Below, piece by piece: positions 11,870 through 61,377 of a DNA stretch of 64,000 nt. The translations under genes and the position numbers were made by a program. The stretch spans positions 1 to 64,000 of the forward strand of contig JALHLV010000018.1 in assembly GCA_022844405.1 (NCBI GenBank), in the 5' to 3' direction. The first letter of the stretch is position 1. Every line of letters starts with the position of its first letter. The notes under the pieces were generated by a model that made no database searches, had not been told where the DNA came from, and saw only the letters and a list, made by a program, of their open reading frames with translations. This DNA comes from Sphingomonadales bacterium. GTDB lineage: Bacteria; Pseudomonadota; Alphaproteobacteria; SMXS01.

Positions 11870-11945
11870 GGGCCTGTAGCTCAATGGTTAGAGCCGGCCG
11901 CTCATAACGGTCTGGTTGCAGGTTCGAGTCCTGCCAGGCCCACCA
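11870..11945 (+). tRNA. tRNA-Ile (anticodon CAT, lysidine-type)
   Basis: A 76-nt cloverleaf is visible: acceptor GGGCCTG pairs with CAGGCCC, D-stem GCTC/GAGC, anticodon stem GGCCG/CGGTC with loop CTCATAA (anticodon CAT), T-stem GCAGG/CCTGC, discriminator A and an encoded CCA. The acceptor and the TGGT variable region look like the minor tRNA-Ile whose C34 is modified to lysidine by TilS so that it reads AUA. It does not resemble elongator tRNA-Met. Automatic tools often label this gene tRNA-Met. Confidence 0.92.
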
Positions 11946-12063
11946 CGCTTCGCCCTTACGGGCTTCGCGTGGCGCAGCCAGGCGGAACCGTTAGGCCGAA
12001 GCAGTGCCCGGCGTAGCTGGAGCGCAGCGGAAGCGAAGACGGGTTTCGCGAAGACGCAGCCGT

Positions 12064-13947
12064 CTAGTCGCCGTCCGGCGCTTCCGGCTTGGCTAGGATT
12101 TCCTCCAGCGCACGGCCTGGTTCTTGTCGTACAGTCATGAGCGTGCCCGATGGCAGCCCCTCGATCCCGGTTGCCGCGACCACTTCGTCCGCATGGGGCA
12201 GCAGTCGCGCCAGGGCGTCGCGCCGGTCCAGGCAATCGGCCTCGATGATCACCCGTCGGCAGCGGCCGAACGGCAGGCCGTCGCGCATGATGTCGTCGGG
12301 AGTCAGGTGCACGATGGCAGCGTCGATCGGCCGCTGGCGCAGCAGCATGCGCGCCGCGGTGAAGCCGTCGGGCTGCGGCGGCGCCCAGCGCTCGTCGCCG
12401 ATCCAGATGCCGCGGGCCGACGCATAGCCGATCGCCGCGCCGGCCGGCAGGCGCGGAGGCGACGCCGGCGTTTGCGTGGACAGGTGAAGCCAGACCGGGG
12501 CGCTGTGATCGGGCCCCAATAGCGCCCGCAGAATGTCCGCATAGACCGCCGGCGAGCCGGTCATGCTGAGTTGCGGCATGGCATTCACCTCGCAGATCAG
12601 CGCCCCGGTTTCCAGCCATGACCTGGCCAGGTCGGCCATGATGAGATCGACGCCGACCAGATCCATGCGCAGCGCGGCCGCCGCATGGATGGCGAGCGCG
12701 GCATTGTCGGGATGGATGTCTGCGGGTTTGAAGTAGATCGGCAGGCCGCCGGTGGAGACGTTGGCGCGCCGGCGAAGCGCCACGAATTGATCCGCCGGAA
12801 CGACGGTGTCAGGCGCCATGCCACGCGCCCGCAGCAGCTCGATGGCCTCCTCGTCGAGTGTCAGGAGCCGCCTGCCGAAATCCCGTTCCCGCCGCCGCGC
12901 GCCCTCGTCTCGCAGGTGAATGTCGATCAGTTCGGCGACACTGTGCCGTCCGTCGCCCATGACGCCGCCCGGGCGGCGGCCGAACGCTTGAACCACCGTG
13001 CCGTCCAGCACCACGATCCGGTAGTCGTTGCCCTCGACATGCTTCTCGACCAGGATCGCGTCCGAGAATTCACGGGCCGCGGCGAACGCGGCGCCGACCC
13101 CGGCGTCGTCTGTGAGCCCGGCCACGACGCCGACGCCCTGGTCCCGGTCGGCGGGCTTGACGACGACCGGATAGCCCAGCCGGTGGGCCGCGTCCACGGC
13201 CTGGTCCTGGTTCGCGACGCGGAAATGCGTCGGGGCAGGGAGGCCGGAGTCGCGCAGGATGCTCGCGCAGGTGAACTTGTCGCGCGCGATCATCGCGCCG
13301 ATCGCCGATGTGGTGTCGAGTAGGCTGCTGTACAGCCAGCGGCTGCGCCGTCCCAGTCCGAACGCATGGAGCCCGGGCGCGATGGGCGTTACCGGTATCC
13401 CCGCGCCGTCGGCGGCGCGCAGGAAGCGGAACGTATTGATCCCCGGTTCGACGAACGGGGCGAGGCGGCGCCGCAGCGCCTCGCGCTGCTGGTTCAGTTG
13501 GGCTTCGTCGGCCGCCAGCCCGCCGCGGGCGAGAAAGCTCAGCACGCAGGACCTGACCCAGTTGATCGAGGCGGACGCGGCTTCCTGGGCGACATAGGGC
13601 ATCGCCAGGACGAACCGCTCGGCGTCGCCGGCCGGCGATGCGCGGACGTGCGAGCGCTCGAGGTGGAAACGGGACGCCACGGGTATCTTGTGCCGCCGCT
13701 GTACGGCGCCCGTCCAGTGCAGCACCCGGAAAAGCAGCGCGTAGGCCGTGCCGGCATCCGCGGGAAGAGCCGGAACCGGCTCGCCGACCTGCTCGTCCAT
13801 GGCCTCGTCGAGGACCCGGAAATCAAAGAATTCCGGAAGCCTTGCCGTGGCGCCACCGATGATCGCCGGCTGGGCCAGGCCGAAGACCGGCCCCCGCAAC
13901 GCCGTCCATTCGGGATCGAACAGGCAGGTCGCGTCGGGCCTGGCCAT
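12064..13947 (-). CDS. cyanophycin-synthetase-like ATP-grasp ligase with degenerate Mur-ligase-like tail
   Basis: This 627-residue protein resembles the N-terminal part of cyanophycin synthetase. A non-catalytic N-terminal region (residues 1 to about 215) leads into RSRWLYSSLLDTTSAIG, the conserved entry to the ATP-grasp domain. The ATP-grasp part continues with KFTCASILRDSGLPAP, YPVVVKPADRDQGVGV and the metal-binding CEVNAMPQLS. Residues about 490-600 resemble the middle of a Mur ligase domain (ARGIWIGD, then MRDGLPFGRCR) but lack the GTNGKTT ATP-binding loop. I infer an amide- or peptide-bond-forming ligase with one active site. Its ATG overlaps the TGA of the cupin gene by one base, so translation is coupled. 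Substrates are unknown. Confidence 0.7.
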   Translation of the reverse strand: MARPDATCLFDPEWTALRGPVFGLAQPAIIGGATARLPEFFDFRVLDEAMDEQVGEPVPALPADAGTAYALLFRVLHWTGAVQRRHKIPVASRFHLERSHVRASPAGDAERFVLAMPYVAQEAASASINWVRSCVLSFLARGGLAADEAQLNQQREALRRRLAPFVEPGINTFRFLRAADGAGIPVTPIAPGLHAFGLGRRSRWLYSSLLDTTSAIGAMIARDKFTCASILRDSGLPAPTHFRVANQDQAVDAAHRLGYPVVVKPADRDQGVGVVAGLTDDAGVGAAFAAAREFSDAILVEKHVEGNDYRIVVLDGTVVQAFGRRPGGVMGDGRHSVAELIDIHLRDEGARRRERDFGRRLLTLDEEAIELLRARGMAPDTVVPADQFVALRRRANVSTGGLPIYFKPADIHPDNAALAIHAAAALRMDLVGVDLIMADLARSWLETGALICEVNAMPQLSMTGSPAVYADILRALLGPDHSAPVWLHLSTQTPASPPRLPAGAAIGYASARGIWIGDERWAPPQPDGFTAARMLLRQRPIDAAIVHLTPDDIMRDGLPFGRCRRVIIEADCLDRRDALARLLPHADEVVAATGIEGLPSGTLMTVRQEPGRALEEILAKPEAPDGD

Positions 13948-14591
13948 CACGCGCTGGGGTGTGGATAGGACCCGCGGGGATAGTCGTCCAGGTCGTCCGG
14001 CGCGGGGAACACAAACCCGTCGTCGTCCGGCGCCACATAGCGGGCCATGGCTGAAACCACCGAGAAGCCTTGCCTTGCATTGAACGTATGGGGCGTCCAG
14101 GCGGGCCAGCAGATCATGTCGCCGGGCTCGACGGCGCAGTCGACCACGGCTGGCGTTCCTTTCGCGTCGTCGCGCTTGACGTGGAAGACGGCGCTGCCGC
14201 AAGTCACCAGGGCGATACGGCCCGAATCGTGCTGGTGCGGGGGGCGGTTGAGGTGACGCAGCGCGCCAGTGGCGCACTGTTCCCGCGGCGCCTCGATGTG
14301 GATCGCGCCAGGCTGCCCGGGCACGCCGACCAGCCATTGGCTGCGAAAGCCCAGATGCGGCATGTCATGCGCGTAGTGTGCATCCCGCCGCGCCTGGCGA
14401 GCCGCCAGAAGCCGGAGCCAGGAGGCCGTCCTCGGCGCGCGCAGGATGAAATCGCCGCGGCGCCAGTGGTCATGCACCACCTCCTCGAAGTCGCCTGTAC
14501 TCAACGTACACGACAGGATCGAGCCGAAGAAAGCCGTCGCCCAGCGATCGATCCCGGCGTCGGAGAGCCGATGTGCGGCCAGTTGGGGCAT
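13947..14591 (-). CDS. cupin-domain protein
   Basis: This 214-residue protein has one cupin barrel at residues about 112-185: HQHDSG supplies His119 and His121, and VEPGDMICWPAWTPHTF supplies the second motif with His168. Such a site could hold Fe(II) or another metal, as in small cupin oxygenases or hydroxylases, but no substrate is evident. I chose the ATG at 14591 because the longer ATG at 14648 would leave only 8 bp to the divergent gene. It overlaps the ATP-grasp gene by one base, so the two proteins probably act together, perhaps as ligase and tailoring enzyme. Confidence 0.6.
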   Translation of the reverse strand: MPQLAAHRLSDAGIDRWATAFFGSILSCTLSTGDFEEVVHDHWRRGDFILRAPRTASWLRLLAARQARRDAHYAHDMPHLGFRSQWLVGVPGQPGAIHIEAPREQCATGALRHLNRPPHQHDSGRIALVTCGSAVFHVKRDDAKGTPAVVDCAVEPGDMICWPAWTPHTFNARQGFSVVSAMARYVAPDDDGFVFPAPDDLDDYPRGSYPHPSA

Positions 14592-14656
14592 GTTTTCCGG
14601 TTGGCCTCGGTTGCGAACGGGAATCTTAGGATATATAGCCGGGAACATGCAACGTC

Positions 14657-15529
14657 ATGGCTGAGTGGACCATTCAGGATCTGTTGCCCGCCGGCGCGCC
14701 ACAGCCCCTGGCGCCGGACCGGGGCGGCTACACCTTGACCATGCGCGAATGCAGCGGTTCGGAGGCGGTGCTGGCGCGGCTCGCGGCCGATGCGCCGCAT
14801 GACGGACGCGCGCATGTGGGCTGGGGCAGCTTCCGCAACCTGGACATCGCCGCCGTGAGGCGCTCGTCGTGGCTGCTGCTGCTCGACGTCAACCTGCATC
14901 AGTTCCGGGTCTGGGATGCGGTGCGCGCGGCGCTGCTCGATCCAGCCGCCACCGACGCCGCCGCGTTCGTCGATATCGTCCTGCCGTTGCTGCCGGCCGA
15001 ACCGCGCCTGCGCCAGTTCGCGGCGTCGACCCGCACCTGGCTGACCGGCGACCTGGAGCGGCCGGGAAGCTGGCTGTTCGCCGAACGGCCGGAGCGGTTC
15101 ACCTGGCTGCGCGGCCTGTTCCGCGACGGCCGGGTTGCCGCCGGCTGTCTGGACCTGCGCGGCAGGCCGCGGGGCGACGGCGATCCCTTCGGCGCGATGG
15201 CCGGACGCATGGCGGCCGCGGCGCGACGAGGCGCCGCCGACCTCGATACGCTCTATGTGTCGAACATTCCCTGGATGATGGCCCAGGACCTTGGCTTCTT
15301 CGGCGAGAGCCACCGGGAATTCCTGCCGCCAGGCGCCTTGCGCGCGCTCGATCAGGTGCATTCTAACCTTCGCGCCATCGCGCCGGCCTTCCGGCTGGTG
15401 GTGTCGGCGGCCCATCTCCGGCCCGAGGCCACGCCCGACAATCTGCAATGGCATACCGAGGTGCTGCCGCCTGCCGCGTTCCTCGACGACGCCTACTGGA
15501 ATACACTGGTTCCGGTATCCGCTGGATAG
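14657..15529 (+). CDS. uncharacterised protein, divergent from cupin/ATP-grasp genes
   Basis: I do not recognise this 290-residue soluble protein with certainty. It has no signal peptide and no membrane segment. Features include a hydrophobic strand with acidic turn (SSWLLLLDVNLHQF) near residue 75 and a late motif LYVSNIPWMM near residue 198; the first recalls a Rossmann-type strand as in methyltransferases, but there is no clear SAM loop. Third-position G+C is strong throughout, so it is a real gene. It shares a 65-bp intergenic region with the cupin gene and may be co-regulated with it. The glycosyltransferase gene follows 74 bp later. Confidence 0.65.
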   Translation: MAEWTIQDLLPAGAPQPLAPDRGGYTLTMRECSGSEAVLARLAADAPHDGRAHVGWGSFRNLDIAAVRRSSWLLLLDVNLHQFRVWDAVRAALLDPAATDAAAFVDIVLPLLPAEPRLRQFAASTRTWLTGDLERPGSWLFAERPERFTWLRGLFRDGRVAAGCLDLRGRPRGDGDPFGAMAGRMAAAARRGAADLDTLYVSNIPWMMAQDLGFFGESHREFLPPGALRALDQVHSNLRAIAPAFRLVVSAAHLRPEATPDNLQWHTEVLPPAAFLDDAYWNTLVPVSAG

Positions 15530-15603
15530 GCCATACAGGCTTTCGTTTCGCGCGTTCCTCACGCATAACTATCGTGATGGGCACGACTTCGCCGGAGGGC
15601 GCC

Positions 15604-16737
15604 ATGGATGACCACATCGCGGTCCTCGCGCCGCCGCCCGCCCGCGCGGTGCCCGAACTGACCATCGTCGTCCCCACCTTTAACGAACGCGACAACATCC
15701 GCCCGCTGCTCGACCTGATCGCCAGGGCGCTCGACGGCGACAGCTACGAGGTCGTGTTCGTCGACGACGACAGCCGTGATGGCACGCTGGAGGAGCTCCA
15801 GGCCTTGTCGCGCGCCGATCCCAGGGTCCGCTATATCCACCGCATCGGCCGCCGCGGCCTGTCGTCGGCCGTGGTCGAGGGCATGCTGAGCAGTTCGGCG
15901 ACCTACCTTGCGGTGATCGACGCCGACCTGCAGCACGACGAGACACTGCTGCCGGACATGCTCGCTGTGTTACGCGGCGGCGAGGCCGACGTGGTCGTCG
16001 GCTCGCGCTACGCCGACGGCGGCGGCATTGGCCAATGGGACGGCACCCGCCAGCTCATCAGCCGCGCCGCCACCCGGATCGCCAGGCTGATCATCCGCGC
16101 CGACCTGACCGATCCCATGAGCGGGTTCTTCATGCTGACCCGTGAGGCCTTTGCCGGCTCGGTGCGGAACCTGTCCACCCAGGGCTACAAGATACTGCTC
16201 GACATCTTCGCCTCCCATCCCAGCAGCCTGCGGCTGCGCGAGATTCCCTACGAGTTTCGCATCCGCCAGCACGGCGAGAGCAAGCTCGATGCCCTGGTGA
16301 CCTGGGAATACCTGATGCTGGTCGCCGACAAGCTGTTCGGACGGTTCGTTCCCGTGCGCTTCCTGATGTTCCTGATCGTCGGCGGCCTCGGTGTGTTCGT
16401 CCATTTCGGCGTACTGACGCTGTTGCTGAAGGGCCTGGGGTCGGAGTTCGAGATCGCTCAGACCGGCGCGACCGTCGCGGCCATGACGTTCAACTTCTTC
16501 CTGAACAACCTGCTCACCTACCGCGACCGTCGCCTCAGGGGCTTTTGGCGTGTCTCCGGCGGGCTTGTGAGCTTCTATGCGGTGTGTTCGCTGGGTGCGG
16601 TGGCCAATGTTGGCGTCGCCACCGTCGCGTTCAAGGAGGAGTTCGACTGGCGACTGGCCGCGCTGGCCGGCATCGTCGTCGGCGTGGTCTGGAACTACGC
16701 CGCCACCAGCCTGTTCACCTGGAAGCAGAAGAAATAG
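15604..16737 (+). CDS. polyprenol-phosphate glycosyltransferase (GT2) fused to GtrA membrane domain
   Basis: The 377-residue protein has a GT2 domain (residues about 15-240: LTIVVPTFNERDN, VVFVDDDSRDGT, and the DADLQHDE metal site) like dolichyl- or undecaprenyl-phosphate mannosyl/glucosyl transferases. A GtrA-like domain of about four transmembrane helices follows (FLMFLIVGGLGVFVHFGVL onward). The fusion suggests that a sugar is loaded on a polyprenyl carrier and flipped for cell-surface glycosylation. I chose the ATG at 15604, which has GGAGGG 6-7 nt upstream. It may belong functionally to the preceding cluster. Confidence 0.88.
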   Translation: MDDHIAVLAPPPARAVPELTIVVPTFNERDNIRPLLDLIARALDGDSYEVVFVDDDSRDGTLEELQALSRADPRVRYIHRIGRRGLSSAVVEGMLSSSATYLAVIDADLQHDETLLPDMLAVLRGGEADVVVGSRYADGGGIGQWDGTRQLISRAATRIARLIIRADLTDPMSGFFMLTREAFAGSVRNLSTQGYKILLDIFASHPSSLRLREIPYEFRIRQHGESKLDALVTWEYLMLVADKLFGRFVPVRFLMFLIVGGLGVFVHFGVLTLLLKGLGSEFEIAQTGATVAAMTFNFFLNNLLTYRDRRLRGFWRVSGGLVSFYAVCSLGAVANVGVATVAFKEEFDWRLAALAGIVVGVVWNYAATSLFTWKQKK

Positions 16738-18193: not shown

Positions 18194-18674
18194 GCGCTAC
18201 CGGTTGCTGTACTGGAGCAGCCCTTCATCGGTTTGCGCGCCGGGCGCTCGCTCGACGTCTCGATGCCATCCAGCCTCAGCCGGCTGCCGCTCATGGCCGT
18301 TCCTGCCCTTTCCGGTTTCGTTATCGGCAAACCCCGTCGCCCCGCTCGCCAATTCAGCATGATGATAATACCGATAGAGCCGTCGATCGACGGAGGGATC
18401 GCTTCACGGCGGGGCACAGGCTAGGATCGCTTGAGGGGAACGGCCCATGAACTTCGTCATCGCATCGAACAGCGAGTCACGGGCGCCTGGCAAACGGCTG
18501 GAGCACCCGCAGGCCGTGCCGCGGAGCGTCTATCCGTCGAACGGCGAAGACCGTTGGATCGACATGAACGAAATCGATCCCAAACTCGCCTGTCGCGGGT
18601 CGTTCTCTAGGCCATGGGAGAGCAGGGACAGTTTGGTCCGGCGTCGGCCGGGGCCGTTTGGACGACCCCGGCCG
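18194..18674. other. gene-poor stretch
   Basis: I see no convincing gene here. It contains a perfect 14-bp palindrome (CCGTCGATCGACGG, 18380-18393), and its right end leads into the hairpin and decayed ligase sequence that follow. The stretch looks like degraded coding DNA rather than a regulatory region. Confidence 0.4.
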
Positions 18675-18682
18675 ACGCTGGA
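18637..18682. repeat. strong stem-loop
   Basis: A 13-bp perfect stem (18641-18653 with 18666-18678) extends outward by four further pairs, one of them G-T, to about 17 bp around a 12-nt loop. It lies at the edge of the acyl-CoA ligase remnant. It has no T-run for a terminator, so it may be a REP-like or mobile-element-derived repeat. Confidence 0.5.
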
Positions 18683-18872
18683 ACTGGATATACGCGACGA
18701 AACCGGAAGTTCCGTACCACAGGGGGAGTTGGGCGAAATCTGGGTCCGGGGCGAACAGGTTTCTGGCACGTATGTCGGCAGGATAACGCGGCGTCGGCAA
18801 GGTTGGTTCCCTCCAAATGACCCCGGAGGAGCGGATTGTGACGCTAATCCATACGTTCAGGGACGCCGCCGG
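18675..18872 (+). pseudogene. remnant of an AMP-forming acyl-CoA ligase
   Basis: In one frame the translation reads LELDIRDETGSSVPQGELGE, then IWVRGEQVSG and GWFPPND, which match the conserved region before the C-terminal lid of AMP-dependent acyl-CoA synthetases (GEIWVRG, GWF-x-T-x-D). The sequence then decays, the tail of the enzyme is lost, and no N-terminal domain lies upstream. It is a fragment of roughly 60 residues of a protein normally over 500. The next gene, an enoyl-CoA hydratase, belongs to the same pathway type. Confidence 0.6.
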
Positions 18873-18913
18873 CGCGAGGCCCGGTGCCTCGCGGCCGTGA
18901 CTCAGGACATGCC

Positions 18914-19978
18914 ATGACCACCACCGCCGATCGACGCGAGGATGCGAAGGACCAGGCCCTGGTCTGCCTCGCCGCCGACCCCGCCGCGCCGGAAATCTTC
19001 TCGCCGGTGGGCGGGCGGCCGGTGACCGTTCTCAATCTGGACGACCTGACGATCGGCTCGTTGCGTGTGGCGGGTACGCCATCGCCACGGTCCGGCGTGA
19101 TGATCGGCGTCGACCGGCGTGGCGCGGTGCCCGATGGCGTCGCCGGCCTGTTCGACGTGCTGCTGACCACGGGCCATGCGCCCGGCAAGGAATGGGTCTG
19201 CGTCGGGCCTGGCGAGATGGACGCCGAGATCGACGGGCTGAATCGCCGCGCGACTGCCACGCCGTTCGCCGCCTCGGTGTTTGCACAGGTGCTGCGCATG
19301 GGCGCCAGCCTGTCCTTCGATGAAGGCCTGATCCTCGAATCCTTCGCCTACTCCACCCTGCTGGCGGGCGGCGAGTTCCGCGCCTGGCGTGCCGCCAATC
19401 CGGCCCGTCACCGGGGCGACGAGCCGGAGCGGCTCGTCGCGGTCGAGCGCGAGCGCGCCCTGCTGCGCATCAGCCTCAACCGGCCCGCCGCCCACAACGG
19501 CCTGAATGCCCGCATGCGCGACCAGCTTGCCGAGGCGCTGCGGGTCGCGATGGCCGACCCGATGATCAGCCGCATTCTGCTCAGGGGCGAGGGGCCGTCG
19601 TTCTGCAGCGGGGGCGACCTCGACGAGTTCGGCGGCGCCACCGACCAGGCGCTGGCCCACGCGGTGCGTATCGCCCGGTCGGTTGCCTCGCTGGTCCACC
19701 GCTGCACCGACCGCGTCTCGGTGCGCCTGCACGGCGCGTGCCTGGGCGCGGGTATCGAGATTCCTGCCGCCGCCGGCAGCGTCACCGCCCACCGGGACGC
19801 GCGGCTGGGCCTGCCGGAAGTGGGCATGGGCCTGATCCCCGGCGCCGGCGGCACCGTCACCGTCCGCCGTCGCATCGGCCGTCACCGCACCTGCTATCTG
19901 GGCCTGTCCGGCCGCCGCCTGACCGCCGAAGAGGCGCTGGCCTGGGGCCTCGTCGACGGCCTGGAGGACGACGCGTGA
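18914..19978 (+). CDS. enoyl-CoA hydratase/isomerase family protein with N-terminal extension
   Basis: The 354-residue protein carries a crotonase domain at its C-terminus (residues about 170-354). The oxyanion-hole motif SFCSGGDL, a GAGIEI segment with one candidate catalytic Glu, and LPEVGMGLIPGAGGT with the second are present, so hydratase chemistry is possible. The first 160 residues resemble a second, degenerate crotonase-like unit without its active-site loops. The ATG at 18914 is preferred over an upstream ATG that overlaps the ligase remnant. A GTG inside its stop codon region begins the next small frame. Confidence 0.8.
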   Translation: MTTTADRREDAKDQALVCLAADPAAPEIFSPVGGRPVTVLNLDDLTIGSLRVAGTPSPRSGVMIGVDRRGAVPDGVAGLFDVLLTTGHAPGKEWVCVGPGEMDAEIDGLNRRATATPFAASVFAQVLRMGASLSFDEGLILESFAYSTLLAGGEFRAWRAANPARHRGDEPERLVAVERERALLRISLNRPAAHNGLNARMRDQLAEALRVAMADPMISRILLRGEGPSFCSGGDLDEFGGATDQALAHAVRIARSVASLVHRCTDRVSVRLHGACLGAGIEIPAAAGSVTAHRDARLGLPEVGMGLIPGAGGTVTVRRRIGRHRTCYLGLSGRRLTAEEALAWGLVDGLEDDA

Positions 19979-20346: not shown

Positions 20347-20359
20347 AGGGGTATTGGTC

Positions 20360-20773
20360 GTGTCTAGGCGTAAGACGCTGTACAGCAAAGTTGTTGGACG
20401 CATTGCACGCAAGCGCAGCGATGTGTTTCTGACGCGCGAATTCGCCGACTTGGGCGGCGAAGATCAAGTTTTGCGAGTGTTGCGCACCTTGGTGCGTGAC
20501 GGCCGTCTTGTGCGTCTTGGTTATGGCGTGTACGGCCGAGCGGTCATATCCTCTCTATCCAGAAAGCCCATGCTCTATAGCGCAAACGGTTTTGCTGGGG
20601 CAGCGCGCGAGGCCCTCACAAAGCTGGGGGTCGAATGGGAGCCGACGGCGTCCGAGACAGCCTATAATGAGGGACGTTCAACACAGCTCCCGGTTAATCC
20701 AGTCGTGCGCGTAAAAGGCCGTTTCTCGCGCCGGCTCCGTTATGGAGATACGGAGCTGGTGATTGAGAAATAG
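20360..20773 (+). CDS. DUF6088/AbiEi-like antitoxin
   Basis: This 137-residue protein has an N-terminal winged-helix-like region (VFLTREFADLGGEDQVLRVL, then GRLVRLGYGVYGR), as in AbiEi and DUF6088 antitoxins that bind their own promoter. GTG at 20360 is preferred: GAGGGG lies about 9 nt upstream, whereas the in-frame TTG at 20354 is too close. It overlaps the toxin gene by 11 bp. Its A+T content is higher than that of flanking genes, a sign of transfer. Confidence 0.75.
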   Translation: MSRRKTLYSKVVGRIARKRSDVFLTREFADLGGEDQVLRVLRTLVRDGRLVRLGYGVYGRAVISSLSRKPMLYSANGFAGAAREALTKLGVEWEPTASETAYNEGRSTQLPVNPVVRVKGRFSRRLRYGDTELVIEK

Positions 20774-21701
20774 CCCAACGCTGCAGCAGCTTCTTGAAGC
20801 GCAAGACTTTTTCCGTTTGCCTAGCCCGGCGCTCGTTGAAAAGGACTGGTATGTCGTACAGGCACTGGCCGCGATCATGGCAGCCGACATGGGGCAATTT
20901 AGCCTTGTATTCGGCGGCGGTACGGCGCTTGGGCGGGCTCATCGCCTGATCCGCCGCATGTCAGAAGATATTGATCTGAAAATTGTGGGCGACCGCGAGC
21001 CCAGGCGTCCTGAACTGCGCCAAATTCGCCGCCAGGCCACGGCCTCTCTGCTGGATGCGGGCTTCAGCTTTGATCCCGAGAATCCAGCACATCGCAGGTC
21101 GGGAAATGGCACGCGCTATACGCTCTACAACATACCTTACGATCCGATCAATCGCGGCCATGGCGTTCTGCGCCCGGAAATCAAAATCGAAATGGCGGTC
21201 TGGCCGCTCCGACAACCCGCCGTCTTGCTACCGGTCTCCTCCTTCATCGCTGAAGCCTATAAACAGCCCCCGGAACTCAAGGCCGTCCCTTGTGTGACCA
21301 TCGCGCAGACCGCCGCCGAAAAGTTTGTGGCGCTAACGCGCCGCATCGCGGCCGAAACAGGACTTCCCGAAGACGAAAGAGATCACACGCTTATGCGGCA
21401 TATATACGACCTCCATGCTGTCCGCGAACATTGTGACCTCGCTCAGGTCGCCGCGATGGCACGCGGTATCATGGACCATGACGCGGAGGAATTTGGCAAT
21501 CAGTCGCCGGCCTATCGTGACGACTGCCTGGGCGAGACCAGACGTGCCCTGGACGCTTTACATGCGGATATCAGCTATGCGGCGCAATATACAAGGTTCG
21601 CGCGCGATATGGTGTTTGGAGAGGTGGCTGATTATGGAACGGTCATCAATACGCTCCAGCGTTTCGCAAGCACGATGGGACTTGGTTCAGCTTTAGGTTG
21701 A
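20763..21701 (+). CDS. AbiEii/AbiGii-family nucleotidyltransferase toxin
   Basis: This 312-residue protein carries the family motif EKDWYVVQAL (residues 26-35) and the nucleotidyltransferase signature GGGTALGRAH (51-60) followed by MSEDIDLK (66-73), whose acidic residues bind metal. AbiEii toxins act as GTP- or nucleotide-dependent transferases that arrest growth, and some give phage resistance. The TTG start at 20763 lies within the end of the antitoxin gene, so translation is coupled. Codon use is less G+C-rich than the core genome. Confidence 0.85.
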   Translation: MRNSPTLQQLLEAQDFFRLPSPALVEKDWYVVQALAAIMAADMGQFSLVFGGGTALGRAHRLIRRMSEDIDLKIVGDREPRRPELRQIRRQATASLLDAGFSFDPENPAHRRSGNGTRYTLYNIPYDPINRGHGVLRPEIKIEMAVWPLRQPAVLLPVSSFIAEAYKQPPELKAVPCVTIAQTAAEKFVALTRRIAAETGLPEDERDHTLMRHIYDLHAVREHCDLAQVAAMARGIMDHDAEEFGNQSPAYRDDCLGETRRALDALHADISYAAQYTRFARDMVFGEVADYGTVINTLQRFASTMGLGSALG

Positions 21702-38749: not shown

Positions 38750-39115
38750 TTAGAGCCGGTATGGGAAGCGTACATCCCTTTCCTCCGAAGGAAAATCGCG
38801 CGTGTTTCTGGTGACGAGAAGGGCGTGGTGATATTTCGCCGTAGCCCAGATCACCGCGTCGGGAAGCTTCATCCGGTGGCGTCGGCGCAGTTCCGCCGCA
38901 AGTTCCGCAACCTCGAACCCCAACAAAATGATCTCGAACCGGTCCAGAAAGCGCCGGGCACGCGCGGTTTCCTGAACATCGGATACACCCACCAAAACTT
39001 CAGTCCACGTCACGATGCTGATCAAACGATTTTCGATGCCAGCAATCTCTTGTCTCGCGTCCGGAATGCCCTTCAGGTAATCAACGAGAATATTCGTATC
39101 GAATACCGCCTTCAT
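38750..39115 (-). CDS. PIN-domain toxin (VapC-type ribonuclease)
   Basis: The 121-residue protein has the PIN acidic residues in MKAVFDTNILVDYLKG, SIVTWTEVLVGV and LPDAVIWATA, which coordinate Mg2+ for RNA cleavage. VapC toxins usually cut tRNA or rRNA. ATG at 39115 overlaps the antitoxin stop as ATGA. Its expression is controlled by the antitoxin. Confidence 0.9.
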   Translation of the reverse strand: MKAVFDTNILVDYLKGIPDARQEIAGIENRLISIVTWTEVLVGVSDVQETARARRFLDRFEIILLGFEVAELAAELRRRHRMKLPDAVIWATAKYHHALLVTRNTRDFPSEERDVRFPYRL

Positions 39116-39333
39116 TCCGGCCATTCCGACCGAAGCCGGTTCTGGTATTCGAGCCCGTCGATATCGCGATCACGCCACATCCCGAACGCGTCGTCCTCGT
39201 CGCTTGGGCGGTGCTTGGAAAGATAGGCGTCCACGGCACGGCGAATGGCCTCCGCGCGCGAGATGCCTTCCTTGGCGCACAGCTTGGCCAGTTCCGACAG
39301 ATTGTATTCTGGAAGGTCGATAATGGTACGCAT
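39112..39333 (-). CDS. antitoxin of a VapBC-type pair
   Basis: The 73-residue protein starts with a ribbon-helix-helix-like segment (MRTIIDLPEYNLSELAKLCA and SRAEAIRRAVDAYL) and ends with an acidic/aromatic tail (GLEYQNRLRSEWPE) that would bind the toxin. ATG at 39333 has AGGTGG upstream; GTG at 39342 is less well placed. Together with the PIN gene it forms a type II toxin-antitoxin unit. Confidence 0.85.
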   Translation of the reverse strand: MRTIIDLPEYNLSELAKLCAKEGISRAEAIRRAVDAYLSKHRPSDEDDAFGMWRDRDIDGLEYQNRLRSEWPE

Positions 39334-50990: not shown

Positions 50991-51443
50991 TCAATGGGCT
51001 TCCGCTTGCGCCATCGCGAGCAGGATGTTCGGGACGGGCCGGAACGGGTTCACTACGGTCAAACCGTTCCAGGTGAACCCGTCCTGCATGTCTTCAGACA
51101 GAAGCATGCGACATCCTGCATTGGCCGCCACCGAGAGAATGACGGCATCCCAGACCTGCACATGGTGATCCACGGCAAGGCTGAACGCAGCGGCAAGAAC
51201 CGCCGGTGACGTCTCCGCGGTTTCATAGCTTTCCATCCACCAAGTCACCGCCAGCCTGGCCTCATCGGCGGGACGCCGGTCCTTGCGAAGGAGCACGGTG
51301 AACAATTCGCCGAGAACCTGCGCCGGCAGCACGATGTTATGGGCCGGAATACTTTTGATGACGTCGATCGCGCGGCGGCGGTGGTCCGCGCCATCGACAC
51401 CCTCCGCATAGGCGAGGATGCTCGTATCGACGGCGACCTTCAC
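50991..51443 (-). CDS. PIN-domain toxin
   Basis: The 150-residue protein has PIN-type acidic residues (MKVAVDTSILAYAEG, QVWDAVILSVAANAG, LLSEDM), expected to cleave RNA with Mg2+. Its start overlaps the antitoxin stop as ATGA. Adjacent Phd-like antitoxin makes a type II toxin-antitoxin pair. The gene converges with metH2 (9 bp). Confidence 0.86.
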   Translation of the reverse strand: MKVAVDTSILAYAEGVDGADHRRRAIDVIKSIPAHNIVLPAQVLGELFTVLLRKDRRPADEARLAVTWWMESYETAETSPAVLAAAFSLAVDHHVQVWDAVILSVAANAGCRMLLSEDMQDGFTWNGLTVVNPFRPVPNILLAMAQAEAH

Positions 51444-51700
51444 TGATCCTCGTGAAAGCCGCCGCGCTCATAAAGCTCGTCCCGCGTCCACTTGCCGATA
51501 TTGCTGACCGGCTGCGCCTCCAAGCGTGCGAACAGAGTCTCGCGGGCAAGCCTGCGCGCCTCGTCGGACGCCTGCTTGGGCACTATCCGCGCCACCGGTC
51601 TGCCGTGCGAGGTGACAATGTAGCTGTCGCCCTCGCGCACATCGCGCAGGACCTGCGAGAAGTTGCGGTTGGCATCGGCCGCCGAGATGGTCTTTTCCAT
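51440..51700 (-). CDS. Phd/YefM-family antitoxin
   Basis: The 86-residue protein matches the Phd/YefM N-terminal DNA-binding fold (SAADANRNFSQVLRDVREGD, YIVTSHGRPVARIVP), with a flexible C-terminal tail to bind toxin. ATG at 51700 is preferred; upstream frame lacks homology. The PIN gene overlaps it. Confidence 0.88.
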   Translation of the reverse strand: MEKTISAADANRNFSQVLRDVREGDSYIVTSHGRPVARIVPKQASDEARRLARETLFARLEAQPVSNIGKWTRDELYERGGFHEDQ

Positions 51701-60186: not shown

Positions 60187-61377
60187 GTGATCTACAAAAC
60201 ACCCACGTTGCAGCCTGAGGATGTGGCCGTAATCTCGCTCATCCATGACCAGAGGGAGCGTCTGCGGGTCTACACCCAAAACAGCCCGAAGCGTTGGTCC
60301 GGGGTCCTGCGGCGCAACTCGTTTGCTCGTGCCATCCAGGGGTCCAATACGATTGAGGGCTATACCGCTAACCTCGACACGGCGATGGCCGCAGCGGAAG
60401 ATGAGGAGCCAATCGAAGAGAAAGATGAGACGTGGATGGCTTTGGCCGGTTATCGATCGGCAATGACATACATTATGCAGGCAGCTCAAGATCAATATTT
60501 CGAGTTCAGCAAGCAGTTTCTAAAGAGTCTGCATTTTATGATGACCGGCCATGATATGACCAAGTACCCGGGTCAATGGCGCCCGGGTGCGGTCTATATT
60601 GTAAATAATCAGACAGGTGAAACCGTATACGAGCCGCCACCGGTTGAAGCTATAAATAATCTCGTCAACGAGTTGGTAATTTCACTCGATGAGAATAAAG
60701 AGGCACCTGTCTTGGTGCGTGCCGCCATGGCCCACTTGAATTTGACCATGATTCATCCCTTCAAGGATGGAAATGGGCGATTGGCGAGGGCGCTACAAAC
60801 CCTGGTTCTGGCACGAGATGGTATGTTGTCACCTGTTTTTTCCAGCATCGAGGAATGGCTGGGGCGCAATACTCAAGAGTATTATCAAGTATTGGCTGAA
60901 ACCGGACAGGGGGTTTGGAGCCCGGAGAGGGATGCGTTGCCTTGGGTGAGATTTTGCTTGAAAGCGCATTACCAACAAGCGGCCACCTTGATCCGCCGGC
61001 ACGAGGAATATGGCGCGCTTTATGAAGGCATATCCAAAATCATCGTCCGAGAGAAACTGCCAGAACGCGCATGGCTGCCACTCTTTGATGCCGCGCTGGG
61101 ACTTCGGGTTATCAATTCTCGCTATCGTAAGGATGCGGAGATTTCCGAATATGTGGCTTCTCGCGATCTCCGGAGGCTGTGTGAATTGAATCTTCTGGAG
61201 CCCAGGGGCGAAAGGCGCGGTCGCGTGTATTCGGCGGCCAATGAGCTGCAAAAGCTCCGCGGCTCGATCAGGATCAAAAAGGTCGTTGAGAACCCCTACA
61301 AGCTCACTGAGCGCAGGCCGAAACCTCCTCAAATTCCCTTGGGCGGAGAGGACGAGCCCCTTTTGCCGGGCTTTTGA
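60187..61377 (+). CDS. Fic-family AMPylating protein
   Basis: The 396-residue protein has the Fic motif HPFKDGNGRLAR (His190 catalytic) in an all-helical core, an N-terminal inhibitory helix with SNTIEG (residues 53-58), the (S/T)xxxE(G/N) motif of class II Fic, and a C-terminal winged-helix domain. It should transfer AMP to a protein hydroxyl and be autoinhibited by Glu58... region. A+T content is higher than the flanks, and an IS1-like remnant precedes it, so horizontal transfer is likely. GTG start. Confidence 0.9.
   Translation: MIYKTPTLQPEDVAVISLIHDQRERLRVYTQNSPKRWSGVLRRNSFARAIQGSNTIEGYTANLDTAMAAAEDEEPIEEKDETWMALAGYRSAMTYIMQAAQDQYFEFSKQFLKSLHFMMTGHDMTKYPGQWRPGAVYIVNNQTGETVYEPPPVEAINNLVNELVISLDENKEAPVLVRAAMAHLNLTMIHPFKDGNGRLARALQTLVLARDGMLSPVFSSIEEWLGRNTQEYYQVLAETGQGVWSPERDALPWVRFCLKAHYQQAATLIRRHEEYGALYEGISKIIVREKLPERAWLPLFDAALGLRVINSRYRKDAEISEYVASRDLRRLCELNLLEPRGERRGRVYSAANELQKLRGSIRIKKVVENPYKLTERRPKPPQIPLGGEDEPLLPGF

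Follow-up and report, generated by a model that had tools for sequence, protein, structure and literature searches.

A CphA-derived, single-site ATP-grasp ligase coupled to a cupin: a candidate amide-forming system in a Sphingomonadales bacterium

Introduction

What might a homologue of cyanophycin synthetase, a kind of protein routinely annotated as a storage-polymer enzyme, make when its Mur active site is missing and its gene overlaps that of a cupin? The question is raised by a locus of a Sphingomonadales bacterium (assembly GCA_022844405.1), which lies within a stretch of 64,000 nucleotides from contig JALHLV010000018.1, here called the window. On the minus strand, a gene at 12064-13947 encodes an ATP-grasp ligase of 627 aa derived from the cyanophycin synthetase CphA, and the gene for a 214-aa cupin (13947-14591, minus strand) is translationally coupled to it. 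We put the probability at roughly 0.55 that the ligase forms, at its single site, an amide bond of a small metabolite which the cupin modifies. An original prediction, made from the window's letters, had already proposed a ligase forming an amide or peptide, and the CphA ancestry and complete ATP-grasp catalytic set described below favour that proposal.

Results

Family, fold and Mur remnant of the ligase

The curated family nearest to the ligase was cyanophycin synthetase (NF010623/TIGR02068, NCBIfam), with an E-value of 8.7e-85 and 285.5 bits against a cut-off of 877. This agrees with the predicted match of the N-terminal half to that enzyme. The score against N-acetylglutaminylglutamine synthetase (TIGR03103) was 150.6 bits, also below the cut-off (569), whereas Pfam RimK was matched over its cut-off; no family with a known product was matched at its curated cut-off. 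An AlphaFold2 model built from 27 relatives was confident (pLDDT 89.8, pTM 0.87), and Foldseek searches with it gave near-whole-chain matches to CphA1 (best 7wae, E 1.9e-43) and to CphA2 (7ta5, TMt 0.74). The protein comprises an N domain (about residues 1-190), a catalytic G domain (about residues 192-470, 12538-13374, minus strand) and a vestigial Mur remnant (about residues 482-592). The RimK score, the Lys/Lys/Glu residues of the nucleotide site and the Asp/Glu residues of the magnesium site, and the Foldseek matches place it in the ATP-grasp superfamily. The HxxEH motif of the CphA1 N domain, found in most but not all CphA1, was absent from the window ligase and from all family members checked.

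Residues 502-564 (12256-12444, minus strand) were aligned by hmmsearch to a hidden Markov model (HMM) of P-loop-bearing CphA M domains with an independent E-value of 2.8e-9, whereas the best of 200 shuffled controls gave an E-value of 2.3. This alignment marks the C-terminal part of the ligase as a true Mur remnant. It begins just past the expected position of the P-loop GxxGKT, which is absent from the window ligase and from every member in the genus and is present in L060; the Mur-like half does indeed lack the GTNGKTT loop, as had been predicted. A Mur ligase has a P-loop, a central Mur domain and a C-terminal one; of these the protein retains only part of the core, having lost the P-loop and all that lies downstream, and it shows the combination typical of CphA2, a single G site and a Mur core without a P-loop, where the state of the lid is judged from length and model only. 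The degenerate Mur half is not the novelty that it had been taken for, as cyanobacterial CphA2 already lacks the P-loop and lid of the M domain (PMC9427784).

Descent of the single-site ligases

In a tree of G domains, CphA2 nested within cyanobacterial CphA1 (UFBoot 100), and the window ligase fell, together with most paralogues from the genus, in a separate clade (split support 89). This clade also holds proteins from Halomonas lysinitropha (L039), from G189 and G251, and from two loci labelled Thiobacillus and Burkholderiales (L038 and L040). A tree forcing CphA2 and the window clade together was rejected by the AU test (p 0.02; 5000 replicates, where the tool prefers 10000), so that a CphA2 by descent was ruled out. 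Since CphA2 is nested in CphA1 and the joint grouping is rejected, the single-site architecture arose, as judged by these trees, more than once.

Active site of the ligase

We aligned the G domains of 22 members of the window clade with CphA1 and CphA2, with residue roles taken from PMC9427784. The window ligase retains K224, K264, E301, R310, D434 and E453, while Q270, Q459 and S461 stand at the positions of H267, G456 and R458 of CphA1. The pattern holds throughout the clade: both ATP lysines, the magnesium-binding Asp and Glu, the acyl-phosphate residue R309 and the Asp-binding N394 are kept in all 22 members, and position R323 holds R or K. Every one of the 22 has another residue at H267 (Q or G), at G456 (mostly Q or T) and at R458 (mostly G or S); of these, R458 is the one that in CphA1 binds the incoming aspartate by its alpha-carboxylate (PMC9427784). 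CphA2 has also replaced H267 (K) and R458 (F or Y) but kept G456. Because the catalytic residues are invariant while these three positions are exchanged, the alignment indicates that the catalytic chemistry is kept and that acceptor recognition has changed. The ligase is probably a real, working single-site amide ligase from a CphA-derived clade distinct from CphA2.

The cupin and its tie to the ligase

The open reading frames (ORFs) of cupin and ligase overlap by one base (GCGTGATGGCC), in the TGATG junction noted originally. The longest cupin ORF starts at 14648 (233 aa), and alignment with a homologue sets the start at 14591 (MPQL...), which leaves the predicted 65 bp to the divergent ORF at 14657. 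The protein carries the HxH and PxxxxH motifs, with PPHQHD and PAWTPHTF conserved, and so has the metal-binding motifs of the cupin superfamily; H138, H140 and H187 (numbering of the 233-aa ORF) form a putative metal site, which suggests a three-His metal cupin.

The orthologous operon of the sister species (L041) has no full cupin. Its leader matches that of the window at 77% identity as far as eight codons past the cupin ATG; an in-frame ORF of 23 codons is then left, which at its end overlaps the ligase gene by the same TGATG. To us this points to an ancestral cupin-ligase operon that lost an internal, in-frame part of the cupin; the opposite direction, insertion into a mini-ORF in the window's own genome, is less likely. 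The sister species has a single cupin homologue, which is 58% identical and is separated by about 2 kb from another of its ligases; this position supports a functional tie between the cupin and the ligase family. Traces of the pair, in the form of the remnant with its junction and the homologue near another ligase, are hence found beyond this genome, which bears out the prediction that the cupin belongs with the ligase.

Ligase copies and their neighbours

The window's own genome encodes eight ligases of the wider family and other members of the genus two to six. No cyanophycinase was found in the seven genus genomes, and no gene of the own genome scored over the CphA1 cut-off. For these two reasons cyanophycin is an unlikely product, and cyanophycin storage was ruled out as a function.

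Several copies adjoin other candidate tailoring enzymes. A methyltransferase family has two matches genome-wide, each directly upstream of a ligase, and the same pair occurs in Halomonas lysinitropha. Other copies lie next to sulfotransferase-like proteins, next to P450 and GT2 genes, or next to a formyltransferase-like protein; a phosphatase-like gene beside one copy had no Pfam match, and its reading as a phosphatase comes from its sequence only. The copy at C9:63-65 kb is found near genes for an isochorismate/salicylate-synthase-like protein, a BagE/FevW-like AMP ligase, two methyltransferases and an amidase, which by its predicted functions is the make-up of a small-molecule cluster. It should be underlined that these counts come from stretches around ligases, that is from loci selected because they bear a ligase. 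Searches of the open-access literature turned up no function assigned to CphA-like ligases such as these.

Some further arrangements were observed among the copies. Two facing ligase copies about 25-30 kb apart are kept in four genus members (G000:C9:34880-65298, G003:C22, G001:C17 and G006:C100), with P450, GT2, phosphatase-like, TonB receptor and chorismate-enzyme genes around them. At L103:4295-11128 (G189:C1), three tandem family ligases share one operon with a gene for a thiamine pyrophosphate (TPP) enzyme and one for a 395-aa protein without a Pfam match, an arrangement in which multi-step ligase assembly is possible. The reading frame of one copy in the sister species (L044:10025-11575, G001:C17) is broken by a stop codon or a frameshift; this copy is either a pseudogene or an assembly error.

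Discussion

A proposed function and its rivals

How might the operon work? We propose that it would yield a small amide or short peptide metabolite. The G domain would phosphorylate the carboxylate of a first substrate and join it to the amine of a second. In CphA1, residues R458, H267 and G456 hold the alpha-carboxylate of the incoming Asp and line the acyl-phosphate (PMC9427784). With these three exchanged but N394 and R323 retained, the amine that is joined would probably be a different carboxylate-bearing one, handled unlike in CphA1. The cupin, whose gene shares the message and is translationally coupled to that of the ligase, would act on the substrate or the product, probably as an oxygenase that depends on a metal. 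Because related copies elsewhere in the genome adjoin other tailoring enzymes, the ligase may be seen as a shared amide-forming engine with interchangeable modifiers.

Several points weigh against this proposal. The cupin falls below its Pfam cut-offs (Cupin_2, 21.0 of 27.2 bits; ARD, 24.8 of 27), and it occurs in two of the seven genus genomes and, among 385 class genomes in a sample that did not contain the sister species, in the own genome only. The neighbour evidence varies between paralogues, and some neighbours (a permease, guaB, rsmB, a chromate transporter and a histidine kinase) look ordinary or unrelated. The NG86 dN/dS values, which indicate purifying selection on the ligase (0.35), on its residues 471-627 (about 0.41; 0.341/0.822) and on the cupin (0.27), are rough, as dS is near 1. 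Even so, such selection together with the full catalytic set ruled out a pseudogene. That the ligase is a decaying, inactive relic of CphA, as loss of the second active site and the broken copy in the sister species might suggest, is hardly credible for an enzyme with invariant catalytic residues, a confidently predicted fold and homologues kept in several genera.

The cupin might instead be a passenger, only loosely linked, with the ligase and the neighbouring DUF7790 protein acting without it. It is missing from five of the seven genus genomes and deleted from the orthologous operon of the sister species; among 21 relatives it was found in these two species only, and with no plasmid match either, a widespread cupin-ligase operon was rejected. 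Yet the deletion preserved both the frame and the TGATG coupling, the two genes overlap by one base in the window, and the only cupin homologue of the sister species lies close to another ligase, so that we regard a mere passenger as rather doubtful. Polymerase activity in the manner of CphA2, with the single G site linking preformed dipeptides (beta-Asp-Arg or another branched one) into a storage or surface polymer, is unlikely. The two enzymes do share their architecture, with no P-loop in the M site and a shortened M domain (PMC9427784), a retained N domain, the structural match to 7ta5 and the loss of R458 and H267. Their descent differs, however, and G456, kept in CphA2, is replaced in every clade member. 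Moreover, the genus lacks a detectable cyanophycinase, the own genome has no CphA1 that could supply beta-Asp-Arg, and up to eight divergent copies with varied neighbours are ill-suited to one storage polymer. Finally, the ligase might decorate a glycan or lipid by placing an amino acid on a surface carbohydrate built with the GT2-GtrA enzyme encoded nearby. That gene is conserved next door in the sister species, genes for GT2 or GT1 and for a phosphatase-like protein accompany other copies, and one relative has GT25 and nucleotidyltransferase genes adjoining its ligase. Against this, the GT2-GtrA gene stands on the opposite strand beyond the DUF7790 gene, the adjacent gene for a short-chain dehydrogenase/reductase (SDR) is equally conserved, and many ligase copies have no glycosyltransferase nearby; we consider such a decoration quite improbable.

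Comparison with known systems

CphA2 (7ta5, 8fxh) resembles the window ligase in its length (about 630 aa), in having an N domain, one active ATP-grasp site and a Mur core without a P-loop, and in the replacement of R458 and H267. It differs in nesting within cyanobacterial CphA1 and in keeping G456, and it works in cyanobacteria with CphA1 and cyanophycinase, the first of which was not found in the own genome and the second not in the genus. CphA1 (7lg5, 7lgm, 7wae) shares with the window ligase a common ancestor, the N-G-M order, the ATP and magnesium residues, and N394 and R323 for the Asp side chain; the window ligase has, in contrast, no M active site, HxxEH, H267, G456 or R458, and reaches 285 of 877 bits. 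Small biosynthetic operons of an oxygenase-type cupin beside one or two ATP-grasp peptide ligases were predicted by Aravind's group (PMC2922099) and are alike in gene make-up, but they carry a Rieske protein, which is absent here. N-acetylglutaminylglutamine synthetase (TIGR03103) has a related ATP-grasp domain but no Mur remnant, and its partner amidotransferase was not seen at the window locus.

Loss of the Mur site is known from CphA2, and what is of interest here is a multiplied family with changing partners. In a genus without detectable cyanophycinase, each genome holds two to eight ligases that have no Mur site, several of them near different tailoring enzymes. Taken together, we tentatively suggest that CphA-derived ligases which lost the Mur site independently of CphA2, multiplied and gained varied tailoring partners may constitute an undescribed route to small natural products, with an exchangeable amide engine whose role would be like that of non-ribosomal peptide modules. 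If this is true, some of the genes that now carry the name cyanophycin synthetase make discrete metabolites, and the loss seen in CphA2 took place more than once. The family also offers a test set for the change from polymerase to single-bond ligase, the same three active-site positions being changed in every member.

Neighbouring genes and other features of the window

The gene divergent from the operon (14657-15529, plus strand, 290 aa) matched DUF7790 (PF25046) with 33.6 bits, above the curated cut-off of 23. Between them lies the intergenic region of 65 bp (14592-14656, no strand), with the conserved block CTATATAxCCTAxGATTCxCGTTCGCAAC. Between the window and the sister species, identity is 65% in this region and 77% in a stretch of 132 bp that takes in the starts of both genes, and the DUF7790 proteins are 77% identical. 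Among the 21 relatives, DUF7790 was found in the own genome and the sister species only, both of which have a whole ligase of the window type; one genus genome (G004) has such a ligase at a contig edge, and the four others have neither gene. The shared gene order is weak evidence because the two species are close, and a class-wide search for the DUF7790 family missed even the copy of the own genome and is uninformative on distribution. Probably, as judged from gene arrangement, DUF7790 is part of the cupin-ligase module and co-regulated with it from the shared 65 bp. A structure prediction from two sequences reached a pLDDT of 38.8, and the protein had no match in PDB or on plasmids; presumably it resembles LIC_10091-type proteins. 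A tRNA-Gly call within the gene (15047-15142) was taken as false.

The GT2 glycosyltransferase gene with a GtrA domain (15577-16737, plus strand; PF00535, 5.7e-34; PF04138, 8.7e-20) has ATGs at 15577 and 15604, and the predicted spacing of 74 bp after the DUF7790 gene is obtained with the latter. The gene is kept in the same order in the sister species, equally so the plain SDR gene beyond it, and nothing was found that would link the glycosyltransferase specifically to the ligase. It is at most a candidate member of the system, and the predicted attachment to, or export with, a glycan was not borne out. None of the four genes had a PADLOC match, and a defence system was dismissed. A scan for promoters and terminators gave nothing above chance.

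The GC content is about 0.69-0.70 across the ligase, cupin and DUF7790 genes (12000-15500), compared with 0.59-0.66 on the flanks up to 18 kb. Downstream of the ligase lies a tRNA-Met(CAT) gene (11870-11945), which also adjoins the orthologous ligases in L041 and L042; in L041 an insertion of several kb separates the two, and the site is a possible integration hot spot. Elsewhere in the window, an AMP-binding enzyme fragment at 18447-18917 is apparently a gene remnant, and at 20354-21701 a gene for an AbiEii-type nucleotidyltransferase toxin overlaps one for a DUF6088-like probable antitoxin (type IV toxin-antitoxin). Two PIN-domain toxin-antitoxin pairs (38750-39333 and 50991-51700) carry ribbon-helix-helix and Phd/YefM antitoxins, and a Fic/DOC-family protein with a weak coding signal is encoded at 60187-61377.

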